Of a stretch of DNA of 64,000 nucleotides, positions 1,919 through 61,411 are shown in pieces. Numbering within the stretch: position 1 is the stretch's first letter; every line of letters starts with the position of its first letter. Position numbers and translations under genes: made by a program. The notes beneath the pieces were generated by a model. That model was not told the DNA's origin. It worked only from the letters and a program-made list of their open reading frames with translations, and did no database searches. The DNA lies in NCBI RefSeq assembly GCF_007995155.1, contig NZ_CP042593.1, forward strand, positions 4,134,001 through 4,198,000, given 5' to 3'. The stretch is from Cytobacillus dafuensis (GTDB lineage Bacteria; Bacillota; Bacilli; Bacillales; Cytobacillaceae).

Positions 1919-2193
1919 GTGAAACTTCAATCATTGGGGGTTTTTCGACGCACAGGACGTGCTAGTGCCGACGTTGCCACAGGACGTGGCGTTCTTAGTC
2001 GGCCTTCATCCCCCACTGATTGTTAGTTGCGGCCCACAGGAAGTGGGTCACGCAGACGTTGCCACACGATGTGGCGCTTTTAGTCTGTGATCATTTTATG
2101 GGCTTTTACGGGCTGTTGATCCCCCACTTAGAAATTTATTCTTAACTCAACTTCTTGAAGTGGGGGTCTTACAGCCCGTTAATCTGCGATAAA
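1919..2193 (-). mobile_element. Family A element 1 (PATE-like, long form)
   Basis: A 275-bp non-coding element oriented on the minus strand. It begins with TTTAT and ends with GTTTCAC followed by TTTATT. The left end folds by GGGCTGT pairing with ACAGCCC around a CCCCCACTT/AAGTGGGGG stem. The right end folds by CAGTGGGGG pairing with CCCCCAATG. Between them lie nested hairpins (CAGAC..GTCTG around GCCACA..TGTGGC; CCCAC..GTGGG) and a second, similar module (GCCGAC..GTCGGC around GCCAC..GTGGC; GCAC..GTGC). Palindromic ends plus a TTTAT boundary and no direct-repeat requirement fit a non-autonomous IS200/IS605-type element. No transposase or TnpB is encoded. Confidence 0.75.
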
Positions 2194-2216
2194 CCTAAAC
2201 TCTCCTATTAGCCAAA

Positions 2217-2242
2217 AAAATGAGCTGTAAGAACAGCCCATT
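2217..2242 (-). terminator. Rho-independent terminator of the acetyltransferase gene
   Basis: On the minus strand GGGCTGT and ACAGCTC form a hairpin followed by ATTTTTTT. It lies about 50 bases downstream of the stop at 2293. Confidence 0.65.
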
Positions 2243-2292
2243 GATTCAACAACCTTTTTCTCCAACTCTTGCTCCCAATAGTTGAAGAAAGT

Positions 2293-2820
2293 TTATTCTT
2301 TTAGTAGTGAGTAAACATTTGTATCATATGCTTTGCCATTTTGATACATATACTTCCTCAATACACCCTCTTTTTCAAAACCCATTTTTGTTAATAGATT
2401 ATTAGATGATTCATTTTCAATAAAGACAACAGCCCCTATACGAGTTAAATCCATAACCTCAAAGCCATATGTAAGGACTTTTGATAATGCTTCTGAAGTA
2501 TACCCTTTTCTCCAGTGCCCTGGATGGATTTCGTATCCTATTTCTGCTCGTTTATGTTTAGGCATCCAGGCATTAAAACCAATTGTTCCAATTATTCCTT
2601 TGAAACCTTTTCTTTCAATCCCCCACCGAATGCCCCTTTTTTCATTATAATTATTGGAAAAGAACTCAATAATTTTTTCTGCTTGTTCTATACTATCTAA
2701 TGTCTCTTGTCCATAATAGCGAGTTACATCATTGTTTGAAAAACAGGCAAAAATATCTTCAGCATCCTCTTTCGTTATTTCTCTCAATATAAGCCTTTCC
2801 GTCTCTAAAATTGGAAACAT
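2293..2820 (-). CDS. GNAT family N-acetyltransferase (RimJ/RimL-like)
   Basis: 175 residues, normal length for the Acetyltransf_3 group. It starts with the typical FPILETERLILREITKEDAEDIF. The acetyl-CoA-binding motif is seen at about residues 88-110 (GYEIHPGHWRKGYTSEAL), followed by the ESSNNLLTKMGF motif near residues 135-150. The family transfers acetyl from acetyl-CoA to amines, such as protein N-termini (including ribosomal proteins) or small molecules. The substrate is not predictable here. AAAGGGAG precedes the ATG with suitable spacing. It stands alone between a repeat element and the kinase operon. Confidence 0.85.
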   Translation of the reverse strand: MFPILETERLILREITKEDAEDIFACFSNNDVTRYYGQETLDSIEQAEKIIEFFSNNYNEKRGIRWGIERKGFKGIIGTIGFNAWMPKHKRAEIGYEIHPGHWRKGYTSEALSKVLTYGFEVMDLTRIGAVVFIENESSNNLLTKMGFEKEGVLRKYMYQNGKAYDTNVYSLLKE

Positions 2821-3075
2821 TTAATCTCTCCCTTTTTATTTATATTACAATTAAATATTCTTCATAAATGGTAGAAATCCCCCTTTTATTGTAACTCTTA
2901 AATTTCCAACCTCCTCACTTTTTAGACATATCAACAAGCTGATTTGGTTTTAAAAAAATATAAAACGGTCAAAAACAAAGAGTAGGCAGTTAAAATTTTT
3001 TGAATAATAGCGTCTCCTAGAATAGGATACTACTTTATCAATTCATACGGGTTAAGAACCTTTCCTATATCTCCC

Positions 3076-4350
3076 TCATCCTCCAATCGGAAATAAAAAT
3101 GAGAAAGTCGTTCCTTCACCCATACTGCTTTCCACTTGAATCATCCCATTATGCCCCTCAACGATGGCCTTACTTAATGAGAGACCAATACCAACAGAGC
3201 CTGACTTTTTGTTCTTCTTTCCTTTATAAAACCGTTTGAAGATATTGTGGATTTCATCTGCTTCGATTCCTTCCCCTTCATCACGAATTTGAATTCGATA
3301 TAAGGTTTCACTCTTCTCCAGCATGACCGAAACCATTCCACTAGAGGGCGTATGCTCAATCGCATTTTTGATTACATTAAGGAGTGCCTCAGTCAACCAG
3401 TCCGTGTCATGCTTCATAAAACACTCCTCATCCGTGGTTACCTTCACTTCTACACCTTTTTGTACGGCAAAGTCTTTTAATATTTCCACACTCCCTTGAA
3501 CAGTCCTTGAAAGTGAGGCATTCTTTTTCTGAAACTGAATAGCACCAACATCCAGCTTTGCCAGCTTTAATAGACTCTGAATCAGCCAGTTCATACGTTC
3601 TAGCTGTTGCCTGCCCTGATCTAAAAACATCAATTTCTGCTCTTTCGAAAGCTCCTTCTCTGTCAAAATATCGTTGTACATCGTTAATGCTGCTAAAGGT
3701 GTCTTCAATTGATGCGAAATATCAGACATTAAATCGGCAAGGAATTGTTTTTCCTTTTGCAATTCCTCAATATTTTTTTGGATCACAAAGCGCATTCGAT
3801 TAAAGCTATGTGTTAGTTTGGAAAAATCCCCTTCCCTCATTTCTTTTAAAGGGGAAATGGATCCACCCTCCAATATTTGATCGGCATAGCCTGTTAACTC
3901 ACGAATCCTTTTATATATCCTATTTATAAAAAAGAAATTCAAACTGAAGGAACTCATGAAAAATAGCAATAAGCTTCCTGTAGTTAGAACAAGAAGCGAA
4001 GAAAATAAATCTGATATTTCCGGAAAAAATTTCATAGACATAGTAGCGGATATTCCATACTCCGATAAAATAGCTATCCCCTGTTTCTTATCTTCATCAC
4101 TAATATCCTTTGAAAGCAGGACCGCCAAATCATCTTGAAGCTCTGGATGCTCTTTTACTAAAGCCCCCATCATTGCAGCATTTGATTCAACATATTCCTT
4201 CTTAAACTGCTCGCCAAAATAATGGATTCCAGTGCTAGTCATCATAAGGAATAGAAGGAATAACAGAATGATAAGCCTTCCCGTCATTTTCACCTCAGGG
4301 TTTTGCCATAAATCGAAGAAACCTATTCTCTTACTACTCGTTTGTTCCAT
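3076..4350 (-). CDS. Sensor histidine kinase of an ABC/two-component module
   Basis: 424 residues. Two membrane segments (about 26-45 and 115-142) flank an extracytoplasmic domain of roughly 70 residues. A HAMP-like linker follows, then the H-box SDISHQLKTP with H213, the N-box NVIKNAIEHT, and the G1 and G2 boxes DEGEGI and GIGLSLSKAI. The protein is therefore a complete autophosphorylating kinase at the membrane. Its start overlaps the end of the response regulator gene by 28 bases, which indicates translational coupling. Together with the permease and ATPase upstream it forms one minus-strand operon. By analogy with Bacillus peptide-antibiotic sensing modules the signal may be an antimicrobial peptide or cell-wall stress, but that is inference. 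Confidence 0.9.
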   Translation of the reverse strand: MEQTSSKRIGFFDLWQNPEVKMTGRLIILLFLLFLMMTSTGIHYFGEQFKKEYVESNAAMMGALVKEHPELQDDLAVLLSKDISDEDKKQGIAILSEYGISATMSMKFFPEISDLFSSLLVLTTGSLLLFFMSSFSLNFFFINRIYKRIRELTGYADQILEGGSISPLKEMREGDFSKLTHSFNRMRFVIQKNIEELQKEKQFLADLMSDISHQLKTPLAALTMYNDILTEKELSKEQKLMFLDQGRQQLERMNWLIQSLLKLAKLDVGAIQFQKKNASLSRTVQGSVEILKDFAVQKGVEVKVTTDEECFMKHDTDWLTEALLNVIKNAIEHTPSSGMVSVMLEKSETLYRIQIRDEGEGIEADEIHNIFKRFYKGKKNKKSGSVGIGLSLSKAIVEGHNGMIQVESSMGEGTTFSFLFPIGG

Positions 4351-5015
4351 TTATATCCCAACCCCCGATGTGTCAATATATATTCTGGGTCTGAAAAATC
4401 TGTTTCAATTTTTTCCCGTAATCGTTTTATATAAACGGATAAAGTATTATCCTCAAAAAATCCGCCGCCACCTTCTAAAAGCAAATCAAAGATTTCATCT
4501 CTACTTAAAATTTTTTCAGGATGATTCATAAAAATCAGCATTAGCTTATATTCTTGGGCAGAAAGAGGAATCTCTTCCCGATCCTTTTTTAACACAGCTC
4601 GATCGACATCAAGAATGATAGAACCACTCCTTAATAGATGGCCAGAATTCGCTTGCCCCTTTCTCCTTAAGACAGCCCGAATCCTGGAAAGCAGCTCGCG
4701 CACCCGAAATGGCTTCGTCATATAATCATCCGCTCCAATATCTAGGCCTAACACTACATTCACTTCATCGTCCATAGCCGTTAAGAAGATGATCGGAATA
4801 TCTGAGCTTTCTCGAATATATTTACACATGTCATAGCCATTTCCATCTGGAAGAGTTACATCTAAAAGAGCTAAATCAAATGATTCTTGATGAAAAGCTT
4901 CTTTACACTCTTCCACTAAGCTTACATGAGTGACATCATACCCTTCCTCTTTTAAGGAAAACTCAAGACCCAGCGCTAATGAAGCGTCATCTTCGAGTAA
5001 TAATATCCGTACCAT
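4323..5015 (-). CDS. OmpR/PhoB-type response regulator
   Basis: 230 residues. The receiver domain has the acidic pair at D9-D10, the phosphoacceptor D52 in ALLDVTLPDG and the conserved K in MTKPF near residue 101. A winged-helix Trans_reg_C domain occupies about residues 130-227 (SAQEYKLMLIFMNHPEKILSR and the recognition-helix region). It should be phosphorylated by the kinase whose gene overlaps its 3' end and should activate the adjacent ABC genes. It follows the permease gene with a 17-base gap. Confidence 0.92.
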   Translation of the reverse strand: MVRILLLEDDASLALGLEFSLKEEGYDVTHVSLVEECKEAFHQESFDLALLDVTLPDGNGYDMCKYIRESSDIPIIFLTAMDDEVNVVLGLDIGADDYMTKPFRVRELLSRIRAVLRRKGQANSGHLLRSGSIILDVDRAVLKKDREEIPLSAQEYKLMLIFMNHPEKILSRDEIFDLLLEGGGGFFEDNTLSVYIKRLREKIETDFSDPEYILTHRGLGYKWNKRVVRE

Positions 5016-5032
5016 CTTTAATCCTCCAATTT

Positions 5033-7021
5033 CTACTCATTTTTTAAAGCATCATTCCAATCACTATGTGTAAGCATCCGTGAAGAAACTCGTGCTGATA
5101 GATAGCAAATCATGACAAGTGATATAAAAGCAACGATATCTTGTACAAAGCTTCTATCCCAATTTGATATTCCGGAACTGAGATATAGTAAGAATTCAAT
5201 TGACACTGCTAACGATATTCCGATGAATCCACTAATAAATGCGTACAGCAAACCCTCTCTAATAATCATTTTTCGCAAGTTCTTTAAAGACATCCCGATG
5301 GCTTTAAGGGTTGCGTATTCCTTTTTACGCAGAATGACATTCATTGAGGATGTGTTAATAATATTTAAAACGCCAATAATACCAATCGCGATGGCAAAGC
5401 CATATAAGTAAATGAGAATTTGTACTTGCAAGGAAGATTGATCTTTCATATTCTCATGCACATTGACTACTTCCAAATTTGGATAGTGTGCGGTTATTTG
5501 ATCCAGCTTTTTTTGAACCTTGTCCACTTCATTTTCATCCTTTAAATAAATTGATATATTACTTATTGATGATTGTGATGGAGCTGATTCACCCGCATAA
5601 TGAATTTGCTTTTCTCTTATTTCGGGAATTTGGTTTAAATCCTTCCAGAATGTAGCCGGGATTTCCTCTGACTGATAAAAAATAATTCTAAAATCTCCAT
5701 TACTATTATCCATATCGGATTGAAATAGCATCAAAACGATATTAGAAAAAGCAGTGAATAGAAAAATGCTGATGGATAAGGAAAAAATAACAATAATAGA
5801 TTTCAGCTTATTCCTCCGTATATTTCGGAGTGCCATAATCGTTTCGATACTCAAAACTCTTTCTATGAAGCGAAAGAACCCTTTTACTTTAAAAACAGTA
5901 CGATTGCTTCTTCTAATAGAATCTAATGGTCCAATTCGATTAGCCATTTTCAGTGGAACCCATCCAGAAATAATAAGAGAAATGACACCAATTAACGAGC
6001 TTAGAAGCATAATAACCGGAGAAAAAATGATTGGGAAATAAAATAAAGAGAATTCTGTTTCCTCAAAAATTAATTGGTATAAGACTAAAACGATCCAATA
6101 GCCAAAAAAGCCTAGAAGCAAGCCGAGCGGTATACCAATACCTCCGAAAATCCACATTTCATACGCAATCATTTTTTTGATCTGATTTTTTGTTGCGCCG
6201 ACTGTTCTCAATAATGTAATATCTCGGATACGCTCAGCGATGCTTATTTGAAAGGTATTAAATATGAATGCAACAGTCGCCAGTACGACAATGAAAATGG
6301 GAAAAATGTAAATGATAGTGAATAAACTATTATTTATCGAATACTCCATCCCAACCAATGGGTGATTTATTTCGATATTTTCTTTGGGTATATAAGCCTG
6401 AATTTGGTCGTACACCACTTGGAAATTTGCTTCCTGAGCTAATTCAATATATAGATCAATATCCCTGTCCTTTTTAACTGCTTTTTGAACGAGGTATGCT
6501 TGTAATGTATACCCATCACGAAGGGCTTTGTTATTTTCTACAATTCTTTGCACATAAAAGGAGTGCTTCATTCCAGAGGCATCTTTGAGCTGAAGCGGTT
6601 GATTTATTTGATCTATTTTTTCAAGATCAGCCACCCATTTTTCTATTATGAGCCCCTGCTTCTTGCGATTGCTTAAAGGGTCAAAAGGCAGTAAGGAATA
6701 AGTGTTCTGATCGATAAAATGAATTTCGATCTGTCCTCCACTATCTATAAAGAATTTCTCTTTAGATAAAACACCTATCTTTTCAATTTGAGGATTTGCT
6801 TCCAGACGTTTTTTTGTTTGCGAATTCGTATTTTTTATTCTTAAATGATATGAGCCATACTCACTTTTTGTCTGTTCAGTTGTATGATCATTCAGGCTGA
6901 ATAAAAAGGTTCCGATTGAAGTTATGAGTGCAATAGACATCATGATACCTAATATTGTAAAGGTCGTTCTTTTTTTATTATGTAATAAATATTTTTTCGT
7001 CAATTTCCGATGAATTGACAT
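5033..7021 (-). CDS. FtsX-like ABC transporter permease
   Basis: 662 residues. An N-terminal membrane helix (about 20-44) is followed by an extracellular region of about 190 residues. Three membrane helices (about 235-365) carry the first FtsX core, with the motif ERIRDITLLRTVGATKNQI. A second half has its own leading helix near residue 410, a smaller extracellular domain, and a second FtsX core with RKKEYATLKAIGMSLKNLRKMI. This duplicated arrangement is used by exporters or sensors of lipoproteins and peptide antibiotics that pair with a separate ATPase. That ATPase is encoded upstream at 7251-7931. The ATG has AAAGGAG ten bases upstream, and this ribosome binding site lies at the very edge of the family A element inserted between the two genes. 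Confidence 0.9.
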   Translation of the reverse strand: MSIHRKLTKKYLLHNKKRTTFTILGIMMSIALITSIGTFLFSLNDHTTEQTKSEYGSYHLRIKNTNSQTKKRLEANPQIEKIGVLSKEKFFIDSGGQIEIHFIDQNTYSLLPFDPLSNRKKQGLIIEKWVADLEKIDQINQPLQLKDASGMKHSFYVQRIVENNKALRDGYTLQAYLVQKAVKKDRDIDLYIELAQEANFQVVYDQIQAYIPKENIEINHPLVGMEYSINNSLFTIIYIFPIFIVVLATVAFIFNTFQISIAERIRDITLLRTVGATKNQIKKMIAYEMWIFGGIGIPLGLLLGFFGYWIVLVLYQLIFEETEFSLFYFPIIFSPVIMLLSSLIGVISLIISGWVPLKMANRIGPLDSIRRSNRTVFKVKGFFRFIERVLSIETIMALRNIRRNKLKSIIVIFSLSISIFLFTAFSNIVLMLFQSDMDNSNGDFRIIFYQSEEIPATFWKDLNQIPEIREKQIHYAGESAPSQSSISNISIYLKDENEVDKVQKKLDQITAHYPNLEVVNVHENMKDQSSLQVQILIYLYGFAIAIGIIGVLNIINTSSMNVILRKKEYATLKAIGMSLKNLRKMIIREGLLYAFISGFIGISLAVSIEFLLYLSSGISNWDRSFVQDIVAFISLVMICYLSARVSSRMLTHSDWNDALKNE

Positions 7022-7035: not shown

Positions 7036-7249
7036 TTTATCGCAGATTAACGGGCAGTAAGACCCCCAATACAAGGTTACGGGAGAATCAAAGAAACCTA
7101 TGTGGGGATCAACTGCCCGTAAAGGCCCATAAAATGAACACAGACTAAAAGCGCCACATCGTGTGGCAACGTCTGCGTGACCCACTTCCTGTGGGCCGCA
7201 ACTAACCATCAGCGGGGGATAAAAGCCCCCCCACTGATGGAAGTTTCAC
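7036..7249 (+). mobile_element. Family A element 2, inserted inside an ABC operon
   Basis: 214 bp, plus-strand orientation. The left boundary TTTAT is at 7036-7040 and the terminal GTTTCAC at 7243-7249, followed by TTTAATGG. The left-end stem (GGGCAGT with ACTGCCC), the central nested hairpin (CAGAC/GTCTG around GCCACA/TGTGGC), the CCCAC/GTGGG hairpin and the right-end stem (CCATCAG with CTGATGG) are all present. It lacks the extra module of elements 1 and 5. It separates the ATPase stop codon from the permease ribosome binding site. Transcription of the operon crosses it in antisense. Confidence 0.75.
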
Positions 7250-7250
7250 T

Positions 7251-30596: not shown

Positions 30597-31283
30597 ATGA
30601 GTATAAATCCACATGTGGCGGAAATCGCCTTTCTCCTTGGAGAAAAGTCACGGGCAACAATTCTAATAAGTTTAATGGATGGCCGGTTTCATACAGCCAG
30701 TGAATTAGCTTATATGGCTGCAATAACACCTCAAACAGCCAGTTTTCATCTTTCTAAATTAATAGAAGCTAGCCTTGTTAACGTTGATAAACAAGGACGC
30801 CATCGCTATTATCAGCTAGCTAATGAAGAAGTTGCACGCATTTTAGAATCTTTTCTTGCGATTTCTCCACCTCCTGAAGTGCGTTCGTTAAAACAATCTA
30901 GTCAAGTAAAATTGCTTCGAGAAGCTAGAACTTGCTATGACCACTTAGCAGGAAAATTAGGAGTCGGCTTAACCGAATCAATGTTGAATACTGGTTATTT
31001 GGAAAAAGAAGAAAGAAACTTTGTAGTAACACCTAAAGGAGAACAGTTCTTTACTGATTTCGGCATTGATTTAGATCAATTAAAAAGAAAGCGACGATCA
31101 TTTTCTCATGCATGTTTAGACTGGAGTGAGCGTCATCATCATCTTGCCGGTGCTTTAGGAAATGAGCTGATGAAACGCTTTTTTGATTTAAGTTGGATAG
31201 TTCAAGTTCCATCTATTCGAGCTGTAAAAGTCACAGATAAAGGAAAAGTAGGTTTTAAACAACATTTCAACATAAATATATAA
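30597..31283 (+). CDS. ArsR family transcriptional regulator (YdfF-like)
   Basis: 228 residues from the ATG at 30597, with AAAGG upstream. The winged helix at about 10-80 reads FLLGEKSRATILISLMDGRFHTASELAYMAAITPQTASFHLSKLIEASLV. The C-terminal region RRSFSHACLDWSERHHHLAGALGNELMKRFF is typical of the longer YdfF-type members and is Cys/His-rich, so it could bind a metal or ligand. A family A element abuts its stop codon. The TAA lies in the TTTAT-type border of that element. Confidence 0.85.
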   Translation: MSINPHVAEIAFLLGEKSRATILISLMDGRFHTASELAYMAAITPQTASFHLSKLIEASLVNVDKQGRHRYYQLANEEVARILESFLAISPPPEVRSLKQSSQVKLLREARTCYDHLAGKLGVGLTESMLNTGYLEKEERNFVVTPKGEQFFTDFGIDLDQLKRKRRSFSHACLDWSERHHHLAGALGNELMKRFFDLSWIVQVPSIRAVKVTDKGKVGFKQHFNINI

Positions 31284-31284
31284 A

Positions 31285-31498
31285 GTGAAACTTCCATCAG
31301 TGGGGGGTTTTTTCATCCCCCACTGATGGTTAGTTGCGGCCCACAGGAAGTGGGTCACGCAGACGTTGCCACACGATGTGGCGCTTTTAGTCTGTGTTCA
31401 TTTTATGGGCTTTTACGGGCAGTTGTCCCCCACCTATCTTCCTCGCTTCTCTCTCAATCTTGAAGTGGGGGTCTTACTGCCCGTTAATGCGGGATAAA
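31285..31498 (-). mobile_element. Family A element 3
   Basis: 214 bp, minus-strand orientation. TTTAT is at 31494-31498 and GTTTCAC at 31285-31291, followed by TTTATA that overlaps the ArsR gene's stop codon. The structure matches element 2, with a right-end stem CCATCAGTGGGGG/CCCCCACTGATGG that is complete and perfect. It is nested inside the Tn3-type transposon. Confidence 0.75.
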
Positions 31499-31603
31499 AT
31501 TTTAAATTCAAATAACACTTACATTTGAATAAGGGGCTATTTTTAATTCTTCGTAATCTAAAATAATCAAATTTTATTTAAAAGAAACAATAAAACGCCT
31601 TTA

Positions 31604-31633
31604 TTGACCAGTCGGTACAAAAGGTGTATTCTA
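31604..31633 (+). promoter_or_regulatory. Promoter and possible TetR operator
   Basis: TTGACC and TATTCT are spaced like -35 and -10 boxes before the TetR gene. Between them lies CCAGTCGGTAC, similar to the CxAGTCGGT half-sites of TetR efflux regulators, suggesting autorepression. Confidence 0.5.
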
Positions 31634-31666
31634 CTAATGTTATCTTAAAATGAGAGGAGAATAAGA

Positions 31667-32263
31667 TTGAATAATCGTGGCAGACCCAGAGAGTTTAATT
31701 ATTCCTCAATTGTAGATGTTGCAATGAAAACATTTTGGATAAGAGGATATGAGGGGTGTTCTACACAAAATTTATGCAGTGATACAGGACTTGGAAAAGG
31801 AAGTTTATACAATACTTTCGGTAGTAAACATGAACTGTATAAACAAGTATTAGAACGCTACCATGAAATTGGGATTAGGGAACAAAGGAAATTGTTAGAT
31901 ACTCCAATTCCAGTTAAAGAACGATTAAGTAATTTTTTTGAATGGGCATTGAAAGAAGACTTTGAGAATATTGATCAAAAAGGATGTTTATTGATTAATG
32001 CCAGTATAGAACGTGCTAAAAACGATTTAATGGTACAAGAAATTTTCACAAAACATGTTGAGCTTCTTAAACAAGCTATTGAAACTGTGATGGAGGAAGG
32101 ATTGCAAACAGGTGAAATTTCAAAGAATCAATCAGCTGAAGAATTAGCTAGTCTGTTTTTAAGCAGTTATTACGGATTCCGTGTTCTTAATGTATCGATG
32201 CAAAATCAGATGTTAGCTGAACAGGTTATCAAAGGAACAATGGAGTCCATTTTTGGCGCTTAG
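31667..32263 (+). CDS. TetR family regulator of the MFS exporter
   Basis: 198 residues with a TTG start after GAGAGGAG. The HTH at about 12-55 reads VAMKTFWIRGYEGCSTQNLCSDTGLGKGSLYNTFGSKHELYKQVL, followed by a TetR_C-like helical domain (about 80-190). It is directly followed by the MFS gene with 61 bases between, so it most likely represses that exporter. Both are cargo of the Tn3-type transposon. Confidence 0.88.
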   Translation: MNNRGRPREFNYSSIVDVAMKTFWIRGYEGCSTQNLCSDTGLGKGSLYNTFGSKHELYKQVLERYHEIGIREQRKLLDTPIPVKERLSNFFEWALKEDFENIDQKGCLLINASIERAKNDLMVQEIFTKHVELLKQAIETVMEEGLQTGEISKNQSAEELASLFLSSYYGFRVLNVSMQNQMLAEQVIKGTMESIFGA

Positions 32264-32324
32264 TGCGCTCTTTTTTCGCACTATTTTTGTACCAATCATT
32301 ACAATAATGATAAGGAGTGTTTTT

Positions 32325-33473
32325 ATGCCATCGATTATTTATTTATTAGCTTTAGCAATCTTTTGTATGACTACATCAGAATTTATGGTTGCAGGTATGA
32401 TGAACGAACTTGCTTTTGTATTTCAGGTTTCTATATCGTCTATTGGGTATTTAATTACAGCTTATGCAGGAGCAATGGTCATAGGAGGTCCCCTTGTGAC
32501 CGCAACTCTCACTCTCCTACGAGTGCGCAGTAAACAAGCATTATTGTTTTTAATGTTTATATTTTTAATTGGTCAATCACTCGGAGCTATTGCTTGGAAC
32601 TATGATATTATGATGATTTCACGTATTATAACTGGTATCGCTTCAGCTTCTGCTTTTGGAGTTGCGATTTCCTTTTCTGCAGCATTGGTTCACTCTGATT
32701 CAAGGGGAAAAGCTGCATCAATTGTACTTGCAGGTTTAATGATTGCAACTGTCTTAGGATTACCTATAACAACCTTTATTTCGCAATATTATGGCTGGCG
32801 TATTAGCTTTGGGGCTGTTTCTGTTCTTGTTCTAGTATCAGGAATAATGATCCAATGGTTGTTACCATCATCTTCAAATAAAGAGCAATTAAATTGGAAA
32901 GACGAACTTCAGCGATTTAAAAATTTTCATCTTTGGGCAGCGTACGTAACAAGTATGTTTATTATTGGAGGTACGTTTGCAGCATTTAGTTATTTCACTC
33001 CTATCTTTACAAACGTTACAGGCTTTTCAAGCGCAAGTATTCCATATTTACTTGCTCTCTATGGTAGTGCGACGGTAATTGGGAATATAATAATTGGCAA
33101 GTTCGCTGATAAATTTACAATGAAAATACTTATGGGTGGATTAATTATATTAATCGTAGCGTTGTCTTTATTTGCTTTAGGTGCAGAGAATAGATACATT
33201 GCGGTTATTTCTACGATTTTTATTGGTTTAACTGGTGTAGCATTGAATCCGGCTATGGTTGCGAGGGTAATGAAAACAGCTGGTAATGGAACAATGATAA
33301 ATACCGTTCATAGTTCTTTTATTACGCTGGGTATTGTTATTGGTTCGTCACTAGGTGGTCTTGGAATCAGTAAAGGATATGGTTTTGTATCTCCGCTGTG
33401 GATTGGATCTTGTTTAGCTATCCTTGGGGTAATTTCATTATTACCATATTTATATAAGAGAAAGACGGATTAA
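32325..33473 (+). CDS. MFS drug exporter (DHA1, AraJ/CmlA-like)
   Basis: 382 residues from the ATG at 32325, which has AAGGAG seven bases upstream. The frame is open to 32253, overlapping the TetR gene, without a site. Twelve hydrophobic helices are seen. The start LLALAIFCMTTSEFMVAGMMNELAF is the usual N-terminus of this group, and motif C appears in the fifth helix (LAGLMIATVLGLPITTF). It exports small hydrophobic compounds by proton antiport; the natural substrate is unknown. TetR control and transposon carriage suggest an inducible resistance function. Confidence 0.87.
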   Translation: MPSIIYLLALAIFCMTTSEFMVAGMMNELAFVFQVSISSIGYLITAYAGAMVIGGPLVTATLTLLRVRSKQALLFLMFIFLIGQSLGAIAWNYDIMMISRIITGIASASAFGVAISFSAALVHSDSRGKAASIVLAGLMIATVLGLPITTFISQYYGWRISFGAVSVLVLVSGIMIQWLLPSSSNKEQLNWKDELQRFKNFHLWAAYVTSMFIIGGTFAAFSYFTPIFTNVTGFSSASIPYLLALYGSATVIGNIIIGKFADKFTMKILMGGLIILIVALSLFALGAENRYIAVISTIFIGLTGVALNPAMVARVMKTAGNGTMINTVHSSFITLGIVIGSSLGGLGISKGYGFVSPLWIGSCLAILGVISLLPYLYKRKTD

Positions 33474-33480
33474 GTGGTTT

Positions 33481-33853
33481 AAAGTGTCTTTACATCTTTA
33501 TTCCCTTTTCGCTAAATTTACTTTTTGATTATGCGTTGATAATGATAGTTTTTTGCTAGGTATCTAGTCAACAATCCGGTAGCTATATTATTCTTATAAA
33601 GAAAGCATCTTTCTTGTTAGCTTAGATTACAATTGTAATCAAACTTTGTTGTTAAAATGAATTATATAGAAAAACGTAGCCTCTTATTTTGATTAATCTT
33701 TTTTCAAAATAAAAGGGCTTATTCTATTACAAAATCAACGTTCGTAACACTTTCCTAATCAAACTTTGTTTTAAACCAACACCTAACGTTGTTTTTTATA
33801 AAAATTCTAAAAAGAGATTTAAAAAGTTTCTTATAGGAAAATAAAGGGCGATT
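33481..33853. other. AT-rich stretch with one hairpin
   Basis: The only structure seen is a stem of CCTCTTATTTTGA with TCAAAATAAAAGG at about 33681-33714, which on the minus strand ends in a T run and may be the old terminator of the gene fragment at 33854-33956. Confidence 0.3.
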
Positions 33854-33956
33854 TTAATAAATTCCGTAATATTTCCAATTATCATAATTAAAAAATTTTA
33901 GATTCCCACCTGAATCCTTAGGATCAATTGGATTGTTGTTATATTTCCTATATAAA
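33854..33956 (-). pseudogene. C-terminal gene fragment cut by element 4
   Basis: 34 codons on the minus strand run from the element's right border to a TAA. They read RKYNNNPIDPKDSGGNLKFF and then NYDNWKYYGIY, clearly protein-like. No start or upstream part exists on the other side of the element. I do not recognise the family. Confidence 0.35.
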
Positions 33957-34061
33957 GTGAAACTTCCATCAGTGGGGGTTTTTTCATCCCCCACTTAGGT
34001 TTCTTTAATTCTCTCGCAACCTTGAAGTGGGGGGTCTTACTGCCCGTTAATCTGCGATAAA
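33957..34061 (-). mobile_element. Family A element 4 (minimal form)
   Basis: Only 105 bp, minus orientation. TTTAT is at 34057-34061 and GTTTCAC at 33957-33963. It keeps the left stem start and a right-end CCATCAGTGGGGG, but the whole central hairpin region is deleted, and CCCCCACTT of the left end is now joined to the right-end block. It shows the minimum retained by the family. It is nested in the transposon. Confidence 0.7.
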
Positions 34062-38822: not shown

Positions 38823-39025
38823 TTTATCCCGCATTAACGGGCAGTAAAATGAACACAGACTAAAAGCGCCACATCGTGTGGCAACGTCTGCGTGACCCAC
38901 TTCCTGTGGGCCGCCAACTAACCATCAGTGGGGGATGAAAGCCGACTAAGAACGCCACGTCCTGTGGCAACGTCGGCACTAGCACGTCCTGTGCGTCGAA
39001 AAACCCCCACTGATGGAAGTTTCAC
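38823..39025 (+). mobile_element. Family A element 5 (two-module form)
   Basis: 203 bp, plus orientation. TTTAT is at 38823-38827 and GTTTCAC at 39019-39025, followed by TTTATC. The left-end hairpin has been deleted between two TAA repeats. Both inner modules are intact: CAGAC/GTCTG with CCCAC/GTGGG, then GCCGAC/GTCGGC with GCAC/GTGC. The right-end stem surrounds the second module. The right border lies 20 bases from the stop of the DUF421 gene. Confidence 0.75.
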
Positions 39026-39045
39026 TTTATCTAGCTCAGAGACGC

Positions 39046-54312: not shown

Positions 54313-56736
54313 CTATAATTTTACACGCTGAAGTCGAAGCGCATTAAGAACAACTGACACCGAACTGAACGCCATTGCCGCACCAGCAAGCCAAGGAGCA
54401 AGAAAACCAAATGCAGCGATTGGAATTCCTAGCGCATTATAAGCTAATGCCCAGAAAAGGTTTTGTCTTATATTTCGAATCGTTTTTTTACTCATAAAAA
54501 TGGCATCAGCAATGCTGTTTAAATCTCCACGGATTAACGTAATGTCTGCTGCTTCCATTGCGACATCGGTTCCTGTGCCAATGGCCATCCCGATATCTGC
54601 AATCGCTAATGCTGGAGCATCATTAATACCATCACCGACCATTGCTACTTTCTTGCCTTGTTGCTGCAGCTTCTTCACTTCCTCTGCTTTCCCCTCAGGC
54701 AGCACTTCTGCAATGACATGGTCAATTCCAGCTTGGGAAGCAATTGCTTTTGCTGTTTGTTCATTATCACCAGTTATCATAATGACATCAAGGCCCATAT
54801 CTTTTAAACGGCTAATGGCTGTAGCAGATGTTTCCTTTATGGTATCGGCAACCGCTACGATCCCTGCATATTCACCATTTATGGCTGTTAACATGGCTGT
54901 CTTTCCTTGCTTCTCAAGAGCAATCATCTTTTCTAAAGCATGATCAATTTCTATGCTGAATTTTTTCAACAAACGGCGAGTACCAATCAGAATTTCCGTA
55001 TCATCGACGATTGCTTTAATGCCATAGCCAGGGATGGCCTCAAAGTCTTTAACTTCCTTTAGATCAATCTGCTTTTCTTTAATCCCATTCACAATTGCTT
55101 GGGCAAGTGGATGTTCAGACTGCTTCTCAGCTGAACCAACGAATGTAAGAAATTCTGTTTCACCCATTTCTGTGATGACATCGGTCAATACAGGATCTCC
55201 GTTTGTAATCGTTCCTGTTTTATCTAGAATGACTGTTTTAATTCGGTGAGTCATTTCCAGATGCTCTCCACCTTTAAAAAGAATCCCATATTCAGCGGCA
55301 CGGCCTGAACCTGCCATGATGGAAGTGGGAGTTGCTAGCCCAAGAGCACATGGACATGCGATAACAAGAACAGCAATTAATTTTTCAAGTGCCTCAGCAA
55401 AATCCCCAGGGGCAACAACAAAGTACCAAATCAAAAATGTAATGACTGCAATTCCAACAACGATCGGAACAAAAACACCTGAAATTGTATCAGCCAAACG
55501 TTGAATTGGGGCTTTTGAGCCTTGAGCATCTTCAACCACTTTAATAATTTGGGCAAGAGCCGTATCTTTTCCTACTTTTGTGGCTTTCATTTTTATAAAA
55601 CCATTTTTATTAATCGTGGCACCAATAACTGCATCGCCAACCGTCTTATCAATCGGAACACTTTCTCCTGTGATCATCGATTCATCGAGTGCTGACTGCC
55701 CCTCTAAAATCTCACCGTCGACCGGAATTTTTTCACCCGGTTTTACTAAAATAACATCCCCTGCCACAACTTCTTCTAAAAGAATTTCTAATTCTTGATC
55801 TTCTCGAATAACGAGGGCTGTCTTCGCTTGTAAACCCATCAATTTCTTGATTGCTTCAGAAGAACGCCCTTTTGCTTTAGCTTCAAACAATTTCCCTAAA
55901 ATAATTAATGTGATAAGGACCGCACTTGTTTCGAAGTATAGGCCCACTGGGTGACCATGATTTCCTATTGTTCCAATAGCTAAATAGACACTGTAAAAAT
56001 AAGCGGCAGAGGTTCCTAATGCAACGAGAACATCCATATTTGCACTTTTATTTCTTAGCGCTTTATAAGCCCCTACATAAAACTGTTTCCCTATATAAAA
56101 TTGTACGGGTGTTGCCAGAGCCATTTGTACCCATGGGTTCATAAACGCATCAGGCACGTATAAAAAAGAAGTGAAGCTGAAATGACCTGCCATTGCCCAA
56201 AGCAGCGGGATGGAAAGAATCGCTGAAAAGATAAACTTTCCCTGCTGGGTTTCGATTTCCTTCATCCGTTGGTCAACCGTTTCTTTTTCATTGTCTTCCG
56301 TTTTGACAGTTGCTCCATAGCCTAATTTTTCAATCTTTTGTATCATATCCTTTGTTGAAACAACCGCTGGATTGTACTCGATTGATGCTTTTTCAAGGGC
56401 AAGGTTGACTGTTGCCTGTAGAACCCCATCCATTTTATTAAGCCCTTTTTCGATTCTAGTCGCACATGCGGCACATGTCATGCCAGTGAGAGCTAATTCT
56501 GTTTTTTCTGTTATGACATCATAGCCAAGCGCTTTAATTTTATTCTGGATATCGGCTGGACCCATTGTTGCTCCATCAAACTTTACAGTTGCTTTTTCTA
56601 GAGCCAAATTGACGTTTGCTTCAAGAACGCCATCCATTTTATTTAGACCTTTTTCAATACGTGTGGCACATGCGGCACATGTCATCCCAGTAACTTGAAA
56701 CTGGCTTTCATGCATTTCTTGCATTTTCCCACTCAT
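54313..56736 (-). CDS. copA: Copper-exporting P-type ATPase CopA
   Basis: 807 residues. Two N-terminal heavy-metal-binding domains each have GMTCAAC (near residues 17 and 85). Eight membrane helices follow, with the ion motif [10 protein letters not shown], the actuator motif TGES, the phosphorylation motif DKTGT, the [10 protein letters not shown] motif and the hinge [10 protein letters not shown]. It pumps Cu(I) out of the cytoplasm, receiving it from CopZ. It is preceded by a copZ gene and a second CsoR-like operator. Confidence 0.95.
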
Positions 56737-56747
56737 TCCCTCATCCC

Positions 56748-56772
56748 CCTATACCTATGGTGGGTATATTTT
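56748..56772. promoter_or_regulatory. CsoR-type operator between copZ and copA
   Basis: On the minus strand TATACCCACCATAGG runs into TATAGGGGG, the ATACC(C)...GGGGG pattern of CsoR sites. It suggests independent copper control of copA. Confidence 0.55.
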
Positions 56773-56821
56773 TTTTAAAAATAGAACGTGCTATTGCTAG
56801 CACGTATTTTTTTCCAAATTA

Positions 56822-57028
56822 CTATTTTACATCATAGCCTTGATCATCAATTGTTTCCTTAATTTTGTCTAAAGACACTTCGTTTGAAATATATTCAACA
56901 TCAACAGTTCCGCTGTCTAAATGAACTTTAACACTTTCAATTCCAGCTAATTCTCCAACACTGTCTTCAACCGCTTTCACACAATGTCCGCAAGACATTC
57001 CAGCTACATGTAATGTTACTTTTTCCAT
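56822..57028 (-). CDS. copZ: Copper chaperone CopZ
   Basis: 68 residues, one HMA domain with the Cu(I) site MSCGHC near residue 10 and the ferredoxin-like fold pattern (VTLHVAGM to IDDQGYDVK). It carries Cu(I) in the cytoplasm to CopA. It lies between csoR and copA on the same strand. Confidence 0.93.
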   Translation of the reverse strand: MEKVTLHVAGMSCGHCVKAVEDSVGELAGIESVKVHLDSGTVDVEYISNEVSLDKIKETIDDQGYDVK

Positions 57029-57043
57029 TATTGAACAACTCCC

Positions 57044-57391
57044 TTATTTTTTCATCAATTTTTGTATAGTAATTAATACTTCATCTAAAACTTCCATATC
57101 CCCTTCTTGAAGACGATCAACAACACAACCCTTTAAATGTCCTTCTAACAATATCTTTGCTACACTGTTCAAGGCGGATTGAGTAGCCGAAATTTGTGTA
57201 ATGACATCATCACAATAAGTGTCTCTTTCAATTAAACCTTTAATCCCGCGAATTTGGCCTTCAATTCGGTTTAATCTTGTCACAAGATTTTTCTTTACCT
57301 TATCAGAATGATGAGCTTTTCTCTCACTTAGAGTTGAGCAGCAGCTTTCTTCTTCGAATTCTAGAGAATCATTATTCAGTTCGGATACCAT
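57044..57391 (-). CDS. csoR: Copper-sensing repressor CsoR
   Basis: 115 residues. The DUF156 core VTRLNRIEGQIRGIKGLIERDTYCDDVITQ contains the first Cys, and GHLKGCV holds the His and second Cys of the C-H-C copper site. An N-terminal extension of about 30 residues with a Cys pair (EESCCST) and an HH motif is slightly longer than usual. It binds operator DNA as a tetramer and is released by Cu(I). It heads the csoR-copZ-copA operon. Confidence 0.93.
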   Translation of the reverse strand: MVSELNNDSLEFEEESCCSTLSERKAHHSDKVKKNLVTRLNRIEGQIRGIKGLIERDTYCDDVITQISATQSALNSVAKILLEGHLKGCVVDRLQEGDMEVLDEVLITIQKLMKK

Positions 57392-57421
57392 TTGGCTTCC
57401 CCCTTTAATTAATTTATATCA

Positions 57422-57451
57422 TACCCCCGTACAGTATGTAAAGGGGTTTTT
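57422..57451. promoter_or_regulatory. CsoR operator before csoR
   Basis: On the minus strand AACCCC, then a spacer with TACTGTA, then CGGGGGTAT: the GC-box palindrome known for CsoR promoters. Confidence 0.65.
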
Positions 57452-57582
57452 TAATCAATGTTTTAAGACAATATCCTTATAAGCACTATTATAGGTGTTA
57501 TCAATATAACTGAAAATATTTAATGACATGGCTATTTATGTAATTGCAAATTTATGTTTTGGAATCACCTTAAGTGTATCTT

Positions 57583-58611
57583 CTATGTGAAATATTCTAA
57601 TTTAGCGCTTGGAAAGAATTTTTCCATATAGGTAAATAAATGCTTTTTCAAATCCTCCTCTTCCTCTTTTTGGTAGATGTATTTCCCAATTCCATACTTT
57701 CCCCATTTATACCTTCTTTTTTGTTCATCTAATTCTAGTTTCGTCATAGGGTAGTTTTTTTCAATCACTTTCTTAGCAGGCTTTGTAAAACGATGTTGGA
57801 TAAATTCAAAGGTTAAATCCTTTTTAGCTTCTGGCGGCAATTCCGCATCTAAACGTTCAAACATTTGATAATATCCATCCTCCCACCCTTCGTGAAGATA
57901 GATCGGGGCTACAATAAAACCAAGTGGATAACCCGCTCTCGCCACTTTACCTGCTGCCTCAATTCTCTTCTCCAAAGGGGAAGTCCCTGGCTCAAAGTTC
58001 TTAATGACATAATCAGCGTTTACACTAAATCGAAATCTTGTTTTCCCATTATGTTTCGCATCAAGTAAGTGATCAACATGATGAAATTTAGTGACAAACC
58101 TTAACTTTCCATACTTTGACTCTCCAAAATGTTCAATAGCTCTTTTTAATGAATGGGTTATGTGATCAATTCCAACAATATCTGATGTACAAGATGCTTC
58201 AAACCTTGTCAGTTCAGGAGCACGTTCCTCCATGTATCTGTCAGCTGCATCTAGTATTTCATCCACATTTACATATGTTCGAATATACGGTTTACTTCCC
58301 ATCGTTGTTTGTAAATAACAATAATGACAATGACCCATACACCCCGTTGCAAACGGAATAGCATACTCTGCTGAGGGCTTTGAGGTATCAAATTTTAACG
58401 TCTTTCTAACTCCAACTACTAAAGTAGACTTGGCAACTCTATACCTTTGAAAATCATTTTCTCCTGGAAGATTTCTTACTTGATTATGGGAAGTGGTATA
58501 GTGAATTTCAACATCCATCTTTTCAAATTTCTCTTTAAGCTCTCTTCCTAATGGATAATCCAATGCTTTTGGTTCAAAATAAACGAGCTTTGGCATAAAT
58601 GGATGATTCAT
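57583..58611 (-). CDS. splB: Spore photoproduct lyase SplB
   Basis: 342 residues, full length. The radical SAM cluster motif is GCMGHCHYCYLQT (CxxxCxxC) near residue 92. Downstream are SCTSDIVGIDHITHSLKRAI and RFSVNADYVIKNFEPGTS; the conserved catalytic Cys region is near residues 140-145 (EASCTSD). It reverses 5-thyminyl-5,6-dihydrothymine in germinating spores using SAM. Its start overlaps the splA gene by four bases. Confidence 0.95.
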   Translation of the reverse strand: MNHPFMPKLVYFEPKALDYPLGRELKEKFEKMDVEIHYTTSHNQVRNLPGENDFQRYRVAKSTLVVGVRKTLKFDTSKPSAEYAIPFATGCMGHCHYCYLQTTMGSKPYIRTYVNVDEILDAADRYMEERAPELTRFEASCTSDIVGIDHITHSLKRAIEHFGESKYGKLRFVTKFHHVDHLLDAKHNGKTRFRFSVNADYVIKNFEPGTSPLEKRIEAAGKVARAGYPLGFIVAPIYLHEGWEDGYYQMFERLDAELPPEAKKDLTFEFIQHRFTKPAKKVIEKNYPMTKLELDEQKRRYKWGKYGIGKYIYQKEEEEDLKKHLFTYMEKFFPSAKLEYFT

Positions 58612-58871
58612 TCTAACAGCCCCTCTGAAGTATTCCCAAAATAATAATGATAAGCTTCTTCCGCCTCTTCTTCTGTAGAATAAACAGCCATTTCATTTGA
58701 AAGCGGATAATAAGTTTCATATAGAAACACTGCTAACTGATCTCTATTCTCAGGATCATTTACAATTGCTGCTTCCTGTATATTGGCTACATTTTGCGTG
58801 TGCGGGTTTCGGTAAAAAACATATACAATATCTCCAGCTTTATAAGTTCCGCTTTCGTTATTTAGCTCCAT
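58608..58871 (-). CDS. splA: Transcriptional regulator SplA
   Basis: 87 residues. The sequence AGDIVYVFYRNPHTQNVANIQEAAIVND and FLYETYYPLSNEMAVY is typical of SplA, which has a TRAP-like fold and represses the splAB operon. It is the first gene of the operon with a four-base overlap to splB. Sporulation (forespore) expression is known for the family; I do not see a clear sigma-G box. Confidence 0.9.
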   Translation of the reverse strand: MELNNESGTYKAGDIVYVFYRNPHTQNVANIQEAAIVNDPENRDQLAVFLYETYYPLSNEMAVYSTEEEAEEAYHYYFGNTSEGLLE

Positions 58872-59085
58872 TCCATCACCTTTTCTTACATAAAGTAGAC
58901 TAGAGTAAACAAACTCCTTTTTAAATTTTTCCTTCCATTCCTTAAAATATGTTTACTTGTTTATGGTAAAAGCTTAAACGAAATTATTAAATCCAGATAT
59001 AAAAATAATTCGTTTAAGTTGTTGAATTTTACTCATAATAATCTTTGATGTGCTTAACAAATTGAAAAGAGGAGTTGAACGACAC

Positions 59086-59451
59086 ATGCAATTTGATTCA
59101 AGAAACACTACCGAAACGGCAATATTAAGGTATAAAGAAGGACTTGGAATGTTCGCTGAAAAAATGCCGGAATTAGTAGATAGGTATCATTCTTTTACTG
59201 AGGAATGCTTTAAAGATGGGGCCTTAACCCAAAAGGAAAAACAACTTATTGCTCTTGGCATTAGTCTTCATGCTCAAGATGAATATTGCATCATGTATCA
59301 TATTAAGGGATGTCTTGATCAAGGATGCAGTGAGCAAGAAATACTAGAAGCTGTTGGGGTGACTTCAGCTTTTGGCGGTGGGGCTGCTATGAGCCAAGCA
59401 GTTACACTTGTTCAAGATTGCATTCAGGAATTAAATCAATTAAAGCAGTAA
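59086..59451 (+). CDS. Carboxymuconolactone decarboxylase family protein
   Basis: 121 residues from the ATG at 59086, with AGAGGAG upstream; a GTG at 59050 would add 12 codons. The AhpD-like motif [25 protein letters not shown] contains a C-x7-C rather than the classical CxxC, and the helix [15 protein letters not shown] follows. The family covers decarboxylases and alkylhydroperoxidase-like thiol proteins; the activity here is unclear. Confidence 0.8.
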
Positions 59452-59578
59452 GAATTTGATTCTTTTATATATAACTTTCTGGACGAAATCTTAAAGATTT
59501 TCGTCCGTTTTGCTTAGGACTGTTTAATTACAAAAACAAATGGAAAAGAACGATAAATTATTTAAAAAGGAGCAAGCC

Positions 59579-60058
59579 ATGAGTAATCAAAATTTAAAAT
59601 CTGAAGCGATTAAGATTATTTCTAATCATAGAACAGGCGTCCTTTCAACGGTTGAAAATAATAAACCTCACTCACGATATATGACGTTTTATAATAATGA
59701 TTTAATCTTGTATTCGCCAACGAAAATGGATACTGAGAAAATTGATGATATAGAGAAAAATCCATTTGTTTCAGTCCTTTTAGGCTATGAAGGACAAGGA
59801 AAGTCCGATTCCTATGTTGAAATTGCTGGAACCTGCCAAATGAATACTTCTCAGGAATTGAAAAAACAACTTTGGGATGAATCCTTTAATAGCTGGTTCG
59901 TCGGTCCTGAAGACCCCAACTATATATTTCTAGAAATACATCCAGAAATAATCCGTATCCTAAATAAACACGGAGAATCTCAAGAGCTTACTTTAAAATC
60001 AGTAAAGCAGACACTTTTTAACCAGCAAAAAGGCTTTCCTTTCATTTACTTCAAATGA
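59579..60058 (+). CDS. Pyridoxamine 5'-phosphate oxidase-fold protein (general stress protein 26-like)
   Basis: 159 residues from the ATG at 59579, with AAGGAG six bases upstream. The split-barrel fold begins with IISNHRTGVLSTVENNKPHSRYMTFYNNDLILYSPTKMDTEKIDDIEKNPFVSVLLGY, the flavin-binding pattern. Its 3' end overlaps the end of the convergent UV endonuclease gene by 13 bases. Function as a flavin- or F420-dependent oxidase or general stress protein is inferred. Confidence 0.83.
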   Translation: MSNQNLKSEAIKIISNHRTGVLSTVENNKPHSRYMTFYNNDLILYSPTKMDTEKIDDIEKNPFVSVLLGYEGQGKSDSYVEIAGTCQMNTSQELKKQLWDESFNSWFVGPEDPNYIFLEIHPEIIRILNKHGESQELTLKSVKQTLFNQQKGFPFIYFK

Positions 60059-61011
60059 AAGGAAGAGCCATCAATGATTTCAACATCCGTTCTTGTCTTG
60101 ATTTCATCCATTAATTTGAACAGTGCTTCATCCTTTCTTTTGGCCTCAATCATACAGTCAATTTGCGTAACACTGCCCTTAATTTCTTTTAGGAACTTAA
60201 AAAACATTCCAGAGTCAATAAAATCTGAATGGTAACGAAACGAAGTCTCGCTTTTTGGACTAGATATGTGCATTTTTATAGGAAGTGGAGAATCCCTCCA
60301 TGTGTGCACAACCCGATCCCAGTTTGTTTCCCAATTTATATTTTGATGATGGGCAAGGTGATGGTGATAGTCAAAAACAAGCGGTATCCCCAGTTTTTCG
60401 CATAAAAATAACGTATTTTCAAGTGTAAAAGAAGTATCGTCGTTTTCAAGCATAATCATTTTTTGAATAGATTTTGGGACCTCCATCCAATTATCAATAA
60501 AACGTTCAAGTGATTTTTCAGTCTCCTTATAATTGCCGCCCACATGCATAACACAACGATGAGTTGAGTCAATCCCCATTCCCTTTAGTAATAAATAATG
60601 CAGCTTTAACGTATTTAAAGAATTTATTAAGATATGTTTTTCCTTTGAGTTAATCAGAACAAAGTGATCTGGATGAAAATCAATTCTCATCTTGTATCTC
60701 TTTGCAAAATCCCCAATTGTTCGGAGCGATCCTTGCAGCGGCGATAAATAGTCCCAATCTTTAAGTACCTCATGGGTTGCTAAAGGAATAAGACGCGAGG
60801 TTAAACGATAAAAATGAATTTCTGAAGCAGCATTATGCTTTAGATGCCTGAGAGTATTTTGTAAATTTATTAGCGTAATACTTTCCAGTTTTTGAATAGC
60901 AGCTTCACGATTCCCTATTTTCTGAAACTGGGCAAATGTCATTGTTTTAGATGGGGATGCACTTTTTAGTCCCATGCTCATAGCAACATACCCAAGACGT
61001 ATAATTGTCAT
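60046..61011 (-). CDS. uvsE: UV damage endonuclease UvsE
   Basis: 321 residues from the ATG at 61011, preceded by GAGGTGG; an ATG far upstream lacks a site. It starts with RLGYVAMSMGLKSASPSKTMTFAQF, the usual UVDE N-terminus. The TIM-barrel metal ligands are in FHPDHFVLIN, MHVGG, MLENDD, LVFDYHHHLAH and IDCMIEAKRKDEAL. It nicks DNA 5' of UV photoproducts. Together with splAB 1.4 kb away it forms a UV-repair neighbourhood. Confidence 0.92.
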   Translation of the reverse strand: MTIIRLGYVAMSMGLKSASPSKTMTFAQFQKIGNREAAIQKLESITLINLQNTLRHLKHNAASEIHFYRLTSRLIPLATHEVLKDWDYLSPLQGSLRTIGDFAKRYKMRIDFHPDHFVLINSKEKHILINSLNTLKLHYLLLKGMGIDSTHRCVMHVGGNYKETEKSLERFIDNWMEVPKSIQKMIMLENDDTSFTLENTLFLCEKLGIPLVFDYHHHLAHHQNINWETNWDRVVHTWRDSPLPIKMHISSPKSETSFRYHSDFIDSGMFFKFLKEIKGSVTQIDCMIEAKRKDEALFKLMDEIKTRTDVEIIDGSSFHLK

Positions 61012-61257
61012 TAATTCCACCTCATCTACAGTATGGATATAATGGTGAAAAAGTAGACAATTTAACACTTTTATACATTTCTTTTTAGAGCATAAACTCG
61101 ATCTCACAATCTCAAGAAATTAATTCTTAGGAAACTACAATCTATACATTAAATTAAAAGTGGAATTTGATATTAAATGATGGCTGACAACTTTGAAATG
61201 TGGGTATAAAGGAGATAGAATAAGCGAAATAAAATCCTTCCTTGCTTATCCTATCTT

Positions 61258-61411
61258 TTTATCGCAGATTAACGGGCAGTAAGTCCCCCACTTCAATGAT
61301 TCGAGTAAAACAAAGAAGAGTAAGTGGGGGATCAACTGCCCGTAAAGGCCCGATAAGTTCAACTAACAATCAGTGGGGGATGAGGAAAGCCCCCACTGAT
61401 TGAAGTTTCAC
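61258..61411 (+). mobile_element. Family A element 6 (end-hairpin form)
   Basis: 154 bp, plus orientation. TTTAT is at 61258-61262 and GTTTCAC at 61405-61411, followed by TTTATC. The left stem GGGCAGT/ACTGCCC and its CCCCCACTT/AAGTGGGGG extension, and the right stem CAATCAGTGGGGG/CCCCCACTGATTG, are present. The central hairpin modules are deleted. The right end supplies the stop codon of the pxpC-like gene. Confidence 0.73.

Follow-up and report, generated by a model that had tools for sequence, protein, structure and literature searches.

In the excerpts of the literature on which we draw here and below, the bcr1 (group A) repeats of the Bacillus cereus group are described as protein-free, intergenic, hairpin-forming sequences of about 150 bp present in high copy number (PMC6542083, PMC3446304, PMC2267715), and a TTTAT motif has been tied to their mobility (PMC6542083). 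IS200/IS605 elements, for their part, insert into the lagging-strand template (PMC6006769, PMC8612924). Here we examine a 64,000-bp stretch of the genome of Cytobacillus dafuensis, a close relative of Cytobacillus citreus (contig NZ_CP042593.1, positions 4,134,001 to 4,198,000; referred to as the window in the rest of the text), which carries six copies of a protein-free repeat bounded by TTTAT. An initial annotation of this stretch had described the copies as IS200/IS605-type elements, akin to palindrome-associated transposable elements (PATEs), that keep an omega-RNA-like scaffold. The evidence presented below favors, with a probability of roughly 0.7, non-autonomous transposable elements of the single-strand type, forming a bcr1-like family of miniature inverted-repeat transposable elements (MITEs) that bear optional cargo and are moved in trans.

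Copies, mobility and replication orientation of the element

All six annotated copies were recovered in the window sequence. Each begins with TTTATC(G/C)C..ATTAACGGGC and finishes in GAAGTTTCAC followed by TTTAT, except for copy 2, which is followed by TTTAA, in agreement with the proposed ends (TTTAT on the left; GTTTCAC, then TTTA(T/A), on the right). The 10-mer ATTAACGGGC occurs six times in the window and was absent from each of 20 dinucleotide shuffles. Across the 4.92-Mb genome, the left end TTTATCNCNNATTAACGGGC (at most two mismatches) was found 214 times, 107 on each strand, compared to 0 for a reversed-pattern control, and six of these 214 lie in the window. The right end GAAGTTTCACTTTA (at most one mismatch) was found 103 times per strand, compared to 5 and 3 for the control. 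Element sizes are modular (about 49, 105, 154, 212 and 275 bp). TTTA follows 78 of 79 paired right ends, and the complete TTTAT follows 75; the single right end lacking TTTA looks like a false one. Besides copy 2 of the window, elements L014 and L042 are followed by TTTAA or TTTAC in place of TTTAT. None of the 79 elements lies inside a long open reading frame (ORF).

The family occurs in many Bacillales. At least 20 left ends were counted by hand in 34 of 193 genomes of the bacterial family (at most 5 per genome for the reversed control), including 171 in C. citreus (G029). G170 and G173 hold 139 and 159, compared to 0 to 3 in each of their congeners. Any left-end match, chance matches included, was present in 147 of the 193; as up to 5 matches in a genome arise with the reversed pattern too, we relied on the 34 well-stocked genomes. 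Among the matches listed, named hosts include Lysinibacillus, Psychrobacillus, Sporosarcina, Domibacillus, Niallia, Peribacillus and Neobacillus, as well as one strain labelled Paenibacillus. A search of phages with copy 6 returned no match, and plasmids gave one partial match, for copy 2. The left end is also present on seven viral contigs (L270-L276). It was matched once on a contig of 4.6 kb that is labelled Modestobacter (L180), probably through contamination.

To assess mobility, the flanks of 30 elements (of 60 usable) were joined at one TTTAT and searched against C. citreus. Sixteen of the joined queries aligned across the junction, the other 14 having no spanning match. Nine sites are cleanly empty with a single intact TTTAT (L019, L021, L029, L035, L045, L057, L059, L061 and that of window copy 6), four are empty with an altered TTTAT (L005, L010, L039, L041), one holds a short element (L003) and two lie inside another repeat (L015, L051). 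Copy 4 is likewise absent from its site in C. citreus, which shows a small indel and an altered TTTAT. The elements are therefore mobile and insert at a fixed short word, as IS200/IS605 elements and PATEs do, and they share with the bcr1 group the association of a TTTAT motif with mobility. TTTAT flanks the elements on both sides, being either duplicated or the right cut site. C. citreus also contains another short repeat of about 86 bp with TTTAAGTTTAT, present more than 20 times, and elements are inserted in its TTTAT.

The orientation of the elements follows replication. Among 100 listed left ends (of the 214), 79 run with replication, the two orientations numbering 48 and 10 before mid-chromosome and 11 and 31 after it (P = 4×10−9); the first gene of the contig is dnaA, and the GC skew of 59 sampled stretches flips sign near the middle. 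In an unselected 464 kb, comprising the window and the following 400 kb, 22 of 29 elements were co-oriented with replication, compared to 360 of 807 intergenic TTTAT words, indicating that the orientation of the target word does not explain the bias. A logistic fit including gene direction as given by a simple ORF caller (98 of 104 elements) returned a replication coefficient of 1.53 (bootstrap 0.96-2.60). The bias was present between convergent or divergent genes (25 elements with replication, 6 against) and, in tandem gene pairs, among elements parallel to the genes (36 and 1). Given the insertion of IS200/IS605 elements into the lagging-strand template, an orientation trait that the present family shares with them and with PATEs, the bias is best read as the result of a mechanism like theirs.

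The basic 154-bp form consists of two hairpins. The initial annotation, which speaks of "palindromic ends", needs correcting in that neither end of the element is an inverted repeat of the other. The compensatory changes that had been pointed out are present (copy 1 has GGGCTGT/ACAGCCC, and both it and copy 6 have CAATCAG/CTGATTG), confirming the original observation of copies with defined ends and covarying hairpins. Using copy 6 and 29 module-free elements of 142-158 bp from named loci of other genomes, we found that 9 of the 25 pairs of a hand-written structure had changed on both sides, compared to a mean of 2.0 after shuffling; none of 500 shuffles reached 9, and sliding the partners gave at most 5. 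In this alignment 97.3% of cells pair, and eight of the nine two-sided changes fall in the right hairpin (8 of its 17 pairs). Wobble pairs, tallied as a sign of selection at the RNA level, showed no strand asymmetry in the backbone (11 GT and 9 AC, 54 elements), so that the covariation requires nothing beyond DNA hairpins. The Rfam matches of copy 6 to an E-value of 1 (best 0.0003) are to eukaryotic microRNA models and one snoRNA model, all far under cut-offs, and were taken as chance hairpin matches.

According to the mechanism that we consider likely, an enzyme supplied in trans would recognise the subterminal hairpins on the exposed, single-stranded lagging-strand template and cut at two TTTAT words, the left one and the one that follows GTTTCAC at the right end, after which the excised strand would be joined into a new TTTAT. 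The right-hand TTTAT would then be part of the element rather than a duplication.

Candidate mobilising enzymes

No TnpB (PF07282) was found in this genome or in C. citreus, and the only Y1_Tnp protein found in this genome is encoded by a RAYT-like ORF of 189 amino acids (L001:1336-1905) with a Pfam Y1_Tnp match and, by eye, an HFH motif. This gene adjoins ORFs that resemble surface-protein genes by eye. Mobilisation of the elements in trans by this single Y1/RAYT protein, in the manner of REPINs, would accord with the action of RAYTs on REP hairpins (PMC6006769), yet we consider it unlikely. Element ends are lacking within about 1.3 kb on either side of the gene, and of 30 RAYT loci read, one alone gave a weak left-end hit (three mismatches). 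RAYT relatives are missing from 15 of the 34 well-stocked genomes, compared to 32 of the 159 with few left ends (P = 0.007), and the best of three RAYT hits in C. citreus contains two stops despite the abundance of left ends there.

The list of well-stocked genomes and their enzyme status were tallied by hand, with only the Fisher tests computed. Among the 193 genomes, 165 have Y1, 146 RAYT relatives and 102 TnpB. TnpB was found in 15 of the 34 well-stocked genomes (19 without) and in 87 of the other 159 (P = 0.34). The presence of Y1, RAYT or TnpB is not positively associated with copy number, the Y1 and RAYT tests pointing in the opposite direction, and all three are missing from six of the 34 (G041, G045, G046, G052, G061 and G062, with 22 to 56 left ends).

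An autonomous partner longer than 400 bp was not found in the genome itself, where matching the first 77 left ends on the list to exact right ends located up to 3.78 Mb gave 63 pairs, all of 49-276 bp, and left 14 unpaired. We also searched the central ORFs of 90 Y1, TnpB and RAYT loci, some of which are evidently not transposases, against element-bearing loci, and obtained 11 hits. A TnpA next to an element (L181) lies outside it, a TnpB (L229) is about 6 kb from the left end, and another hit is a DinB-family gene (L368); those in L168, L200 and L217 derive from one doubtful 407-amino-acid query, and the RAYT of the genome itself was found again. One Y1 locus contains two RF01690 cores (see below), which belong to another repeat.

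An ordinary DDE-type MITE generating a 5-bp TTTAT target duplication would account for TTTAT on both sides of the elements and for the single TTTAT at empty sites. We hold this to be still less probable than mobilisation by the RAYT-like protein, as the elements lack terminal inverted repeats and a strong replication-strand bias independent of gene direction is unexpected for a double-strand mechanism.

Several observations weigh against a single-strand transposon moved in trans. The bias is absent from elements that lie in tandem gene pairs and run antiparallel to them (13 with replication, 17 against), and the six copies of the window are split evenly between the two orientations. Textbook IS200/IS605 transposition leaves no duplication (PMC7290912, PMC8612924), unlike the TTTAT seen on both sides here; this difference would vanish if the right end, too, were cut at TTTAT. 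Both ends of the element were found at none of 90 protein loci (30 TnpB, 30 best Y1 and 30 RAYT), in a loose first look that took in 30 loci per protein and no DDE transposases; such an enzyme could have disappeared following a burst. Y1 is missing from 10 of the 34 well-stocked genomes, compared to 18 of the 159 others (P = 0.013). Finally, 120 named loci gave 125 left ends, of which 44 had no right end in reach and only one was more than 400 bp from the next; the long pair so formed (L161, 1335 bp) encloses a gene for spore germination (GerAC) and was rejected as an autonomous element.

The IS200/IS605-type assignment of the initial annotation accordingly holds in part. Protein-free structure, mobility, the TTTAT target, subterminal hairpins without terminal inverted repeats and the replication bias lend new support to a mechanism of this type, whereas the search for a TnpA or TnpB with matching ends, which had been proposed as a check, came back empty in this genome and in the related loci sampled (0 of 30 for TnpB, 0 of 30 for the best Y1). 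The annotation had named two outcomes that would speak against it: the absence of such a partner, which is what the sample gave, and a lack of covariation, whereas the hairpins do covary.

The interior module and its relation to Bacillaceae-1 RNA

Longer forms of the element contain an additional module that sits between the hairpins or inside the loop of the right one, or a module in each place. This module belongs to the Rfam family RF01690 (Bacillaceae-1), with six hits in the window scoring 63.7-75.9 bits for a gathering cut-off of 35, none of them in copies 4 and 6, and at least 150 hits genome-wide, up to 78.9 bits. In the unselected 464 kb, searched with end motifs allowing some mismatches, 23 of 25 RF01690 hits sit between left and right element ends; this count supersedes an earlier one of 57 out of 57, which was biased because the loci had been chosen by their left ends. 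Conversely, 31 of 78 elements of this genome are without any scaffold module, and 9 of 80 paired elements are 46-49 bp forms without any interior. Another module, B, occurs in 16 of the 78 elements by string match and, by eye, resembles an inverted variant. The interior structure, be it RF01690 or a different hairpin module, is cargo that is optional and can be exchanged, and not a TnpB guide RNA.

RF01690 itself was found in 85 of the 193 genomes. Among ten top-scoring loci in other genomes, read by eye, nine have the module in a different repeat, AGAAAAGCGG...GGAGCTAGACAG, and one (L063) has it in the TTTAT backbone. The former constitutes a second palindromic repeat family with RF01690 (L064-L070; L136, G038:C4:355500-362500), which in the congener G038 is arrayed in tandem every 312 bp (14 units among those listed), and two modules of this repeat type stand beside a Y1 gene in L094. 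These observations bear on whether the unit is essentially a functional small RNA (sRNA) gene copied for the sake of its RNA. The number and strength of the RF01690 hits and the conservation of their loops would suit such a gene; we nevertheless give it little credence, as the module is optional, occupies either slot and, in nine of the ten loci read elsewhere, resides in another backbone, and as neighbouring genes read the elements in sense and antisense about equally (23 and 25). At least where this genome was tested, with 23 of 25 hits being cargo of a mobile element, it is misleading to annotate RF01690 as an sRNA gene in its own right. Among the titles and abstract beginnings listed, which cover subscription journals thinly, none names a link between RF01690 and mobile repeats (PMC2864571, PMC4333381).

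That the elements are PATE-like IS605 remnants keeping an omega RNA, or right-end element RNA (reRNA), scaffold for a TnpB, as initially proposed, would agree with their target word, hairpins, lack of terminal inverted repeats, covariation and replication bias, and with the frequency of TnpB elsewhere in the bacterial family, but it is highly improbable given that TnpB was found neither here nor in C. citreus, is no commoner in well-stocked genomes and is bounded by both of these ends at none of the 30 loci read, and that an reRNA covers the 3′ end of tnpB and the right end (PMC8612924) while the interior here is RF01690, another module or nothing.

The loops of the module point to a possible link with CsrA. 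Among 91 distinct modules, a set skewed towards the six of the window because a profile of these was used to collect it, NTCCT is the sequence of 117 hairpin loops, where N is G in 76, A in 21, T in 20 and C in none. On the complementary strand these loops correspond to CAGGA(C/U/A)G, the repeat described for CsrB (PMC7652899), so that, as in a CsrA sponge, several hairpins present GGA in their loops. A CsrA-binding motif had been put forward in 2014 for Bacillaceae-1 in reverse complement (PMC4333381), so that our addition lies not in the motif but in its mobile setting. The genome encodes CsrA (PF02599, 93 bits; 58% identical over 74 residues to its B. subtilis counterpart). Within the module, wobble pairs are 47 GT and 4 AC, 40 of the 47 GT falling at one loop-closing position. 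Against a sponge stand 22 further loops that read ATCGT, breaking GGA, the lack of a preferred strand among module-bearing elements (types A, AC and C) in tandem gene contexts (10 sense, 10 antisense), and the control of B. subtilis CsrA by FliW (PMC7652899). As a long shot, a Bacillales-wide single-strand transposon, with a mover linked neither to Y1/RAYT nor to TnpB, may have picked up a putative CsrA-binding module and dispersed it over many genomes; read from the complementary strand, these copies would titrate CsrA, making the family a mobile, distributed counterpart of CsrB.

Table 1. Positions of the element copies, their parts and RF01690 modules in the window.
Feature	Position	Strand	Remarks
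Element copy 1, 275 bp, two RF01690 modules	1919..2193	-	TTTAT also at 1914-1918
RF01690 in right-hairpin loop of copy 1	1949..2014	-	64.7 bits
RF01690 between the two hairpins of copy 1	2033..2099	-	75.2 bits
Element copy 2, 214 bp, one module	7036..7249	+	then TTTAA 7250-7254
RF01690 of copy 2	7129..7195	+	75.9 bits
Element copy 3, 214 bp, one module	31285..31498	-	TTTAT at 31280-31284
RF01690 of copy 3	31340..31406	-	75.9 bits
Element copy 4, 105 bp, no module, 3′ arm of left hairpin missing	33957..34061	-	TTTAT at 33952-33956
Element copy 5, 203 bp, two modules, 3′ arm of left hairpin missing	38823..39025	+	TTTAT at 39026-39030
RF01690 of copy 5	38844..38910	+	74.5 bits
Second RF01690 of copy 5, in right-hairpin loop	38930..38995	+	63.7 bits
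Element copy 6, 154 bp, module-free basic form	61258..61411	+	
Copy 6 left end TTTATCGCAGATTAACGGGC (TTTAT target word and conserved end)	61258..61277	+	
Copy 6 left hairpin	61273..61342	+	outer arms 61273-61280 and 61335-61342
Copy 6 right hairpin	61361..61407	+	arms 61361-61379 and 61390-61407
Copy 6 right end GTTTCAC, then TTTAT	61405..61416	+	

The truncated left hairpins of copies 4 and 5 look like the products of internal deletions at short direct repeats. Copy 2 sits between genes for an FtsX permease and an ABC ATPase. The pair of TetR and MFS genes adjoining copy 3 (31493-33495) is 94% identical to another place in C. citreus and also 94% identical to a stretch in another genome (G036).

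Comparison with known repeats and regulatory RNAs

Our analysis joins the Bacillaceae-1 "sRNA" family, of unknown function, with the TTTAT-flanked hairpin repeats of Bacillales, and opens two questions to direct testing, namely what enzyme is responsible for moving bcr1-like repeats and whether CsrA-binding sites are being dispersed by a transposable element. More generally, orphan repeats can be tested for single-strand transposition at little cost, from genome sequence, through their strand bias.

With sRNAs of the CsrB/RsmZ type that bind CsrA, the complementary strand of the module shares CAGGA(C/U/A)G in hairpin loops; it differs in having two hairpins per module, scattered in mobile elements and known from sequence only, and a pentaloop instead of the preferred loop of six nucleotides (PMC7652899). 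The internal module is a member of Bacillaceae-1 RF01690, which Rfam types as an sRNA gene, whereas here it is the cargo of a mobile element. REPIN/RAYT systems likewise combine high-copy hairpin repeats with a single Y1 protein in the genome; here, in contrast, RAYT and element show neither linkage nor positive association. IS200/IS605 elements and PATEs resemble this family in their lagging-strand orientation, in targeting a fixed, AT-rich short word and in having subterminal hairpins but not terminal inverted repeats, while TTTAT on both sides and the failure to find a TnpA or TnpB with these ends set the family apart. Among the closest described counterparts are the bcr1 repeats, a likeness drawn from their description; unlike bcr1, the present family extends over Cytobacillus and other genera of Bacillales and carries RF01690.

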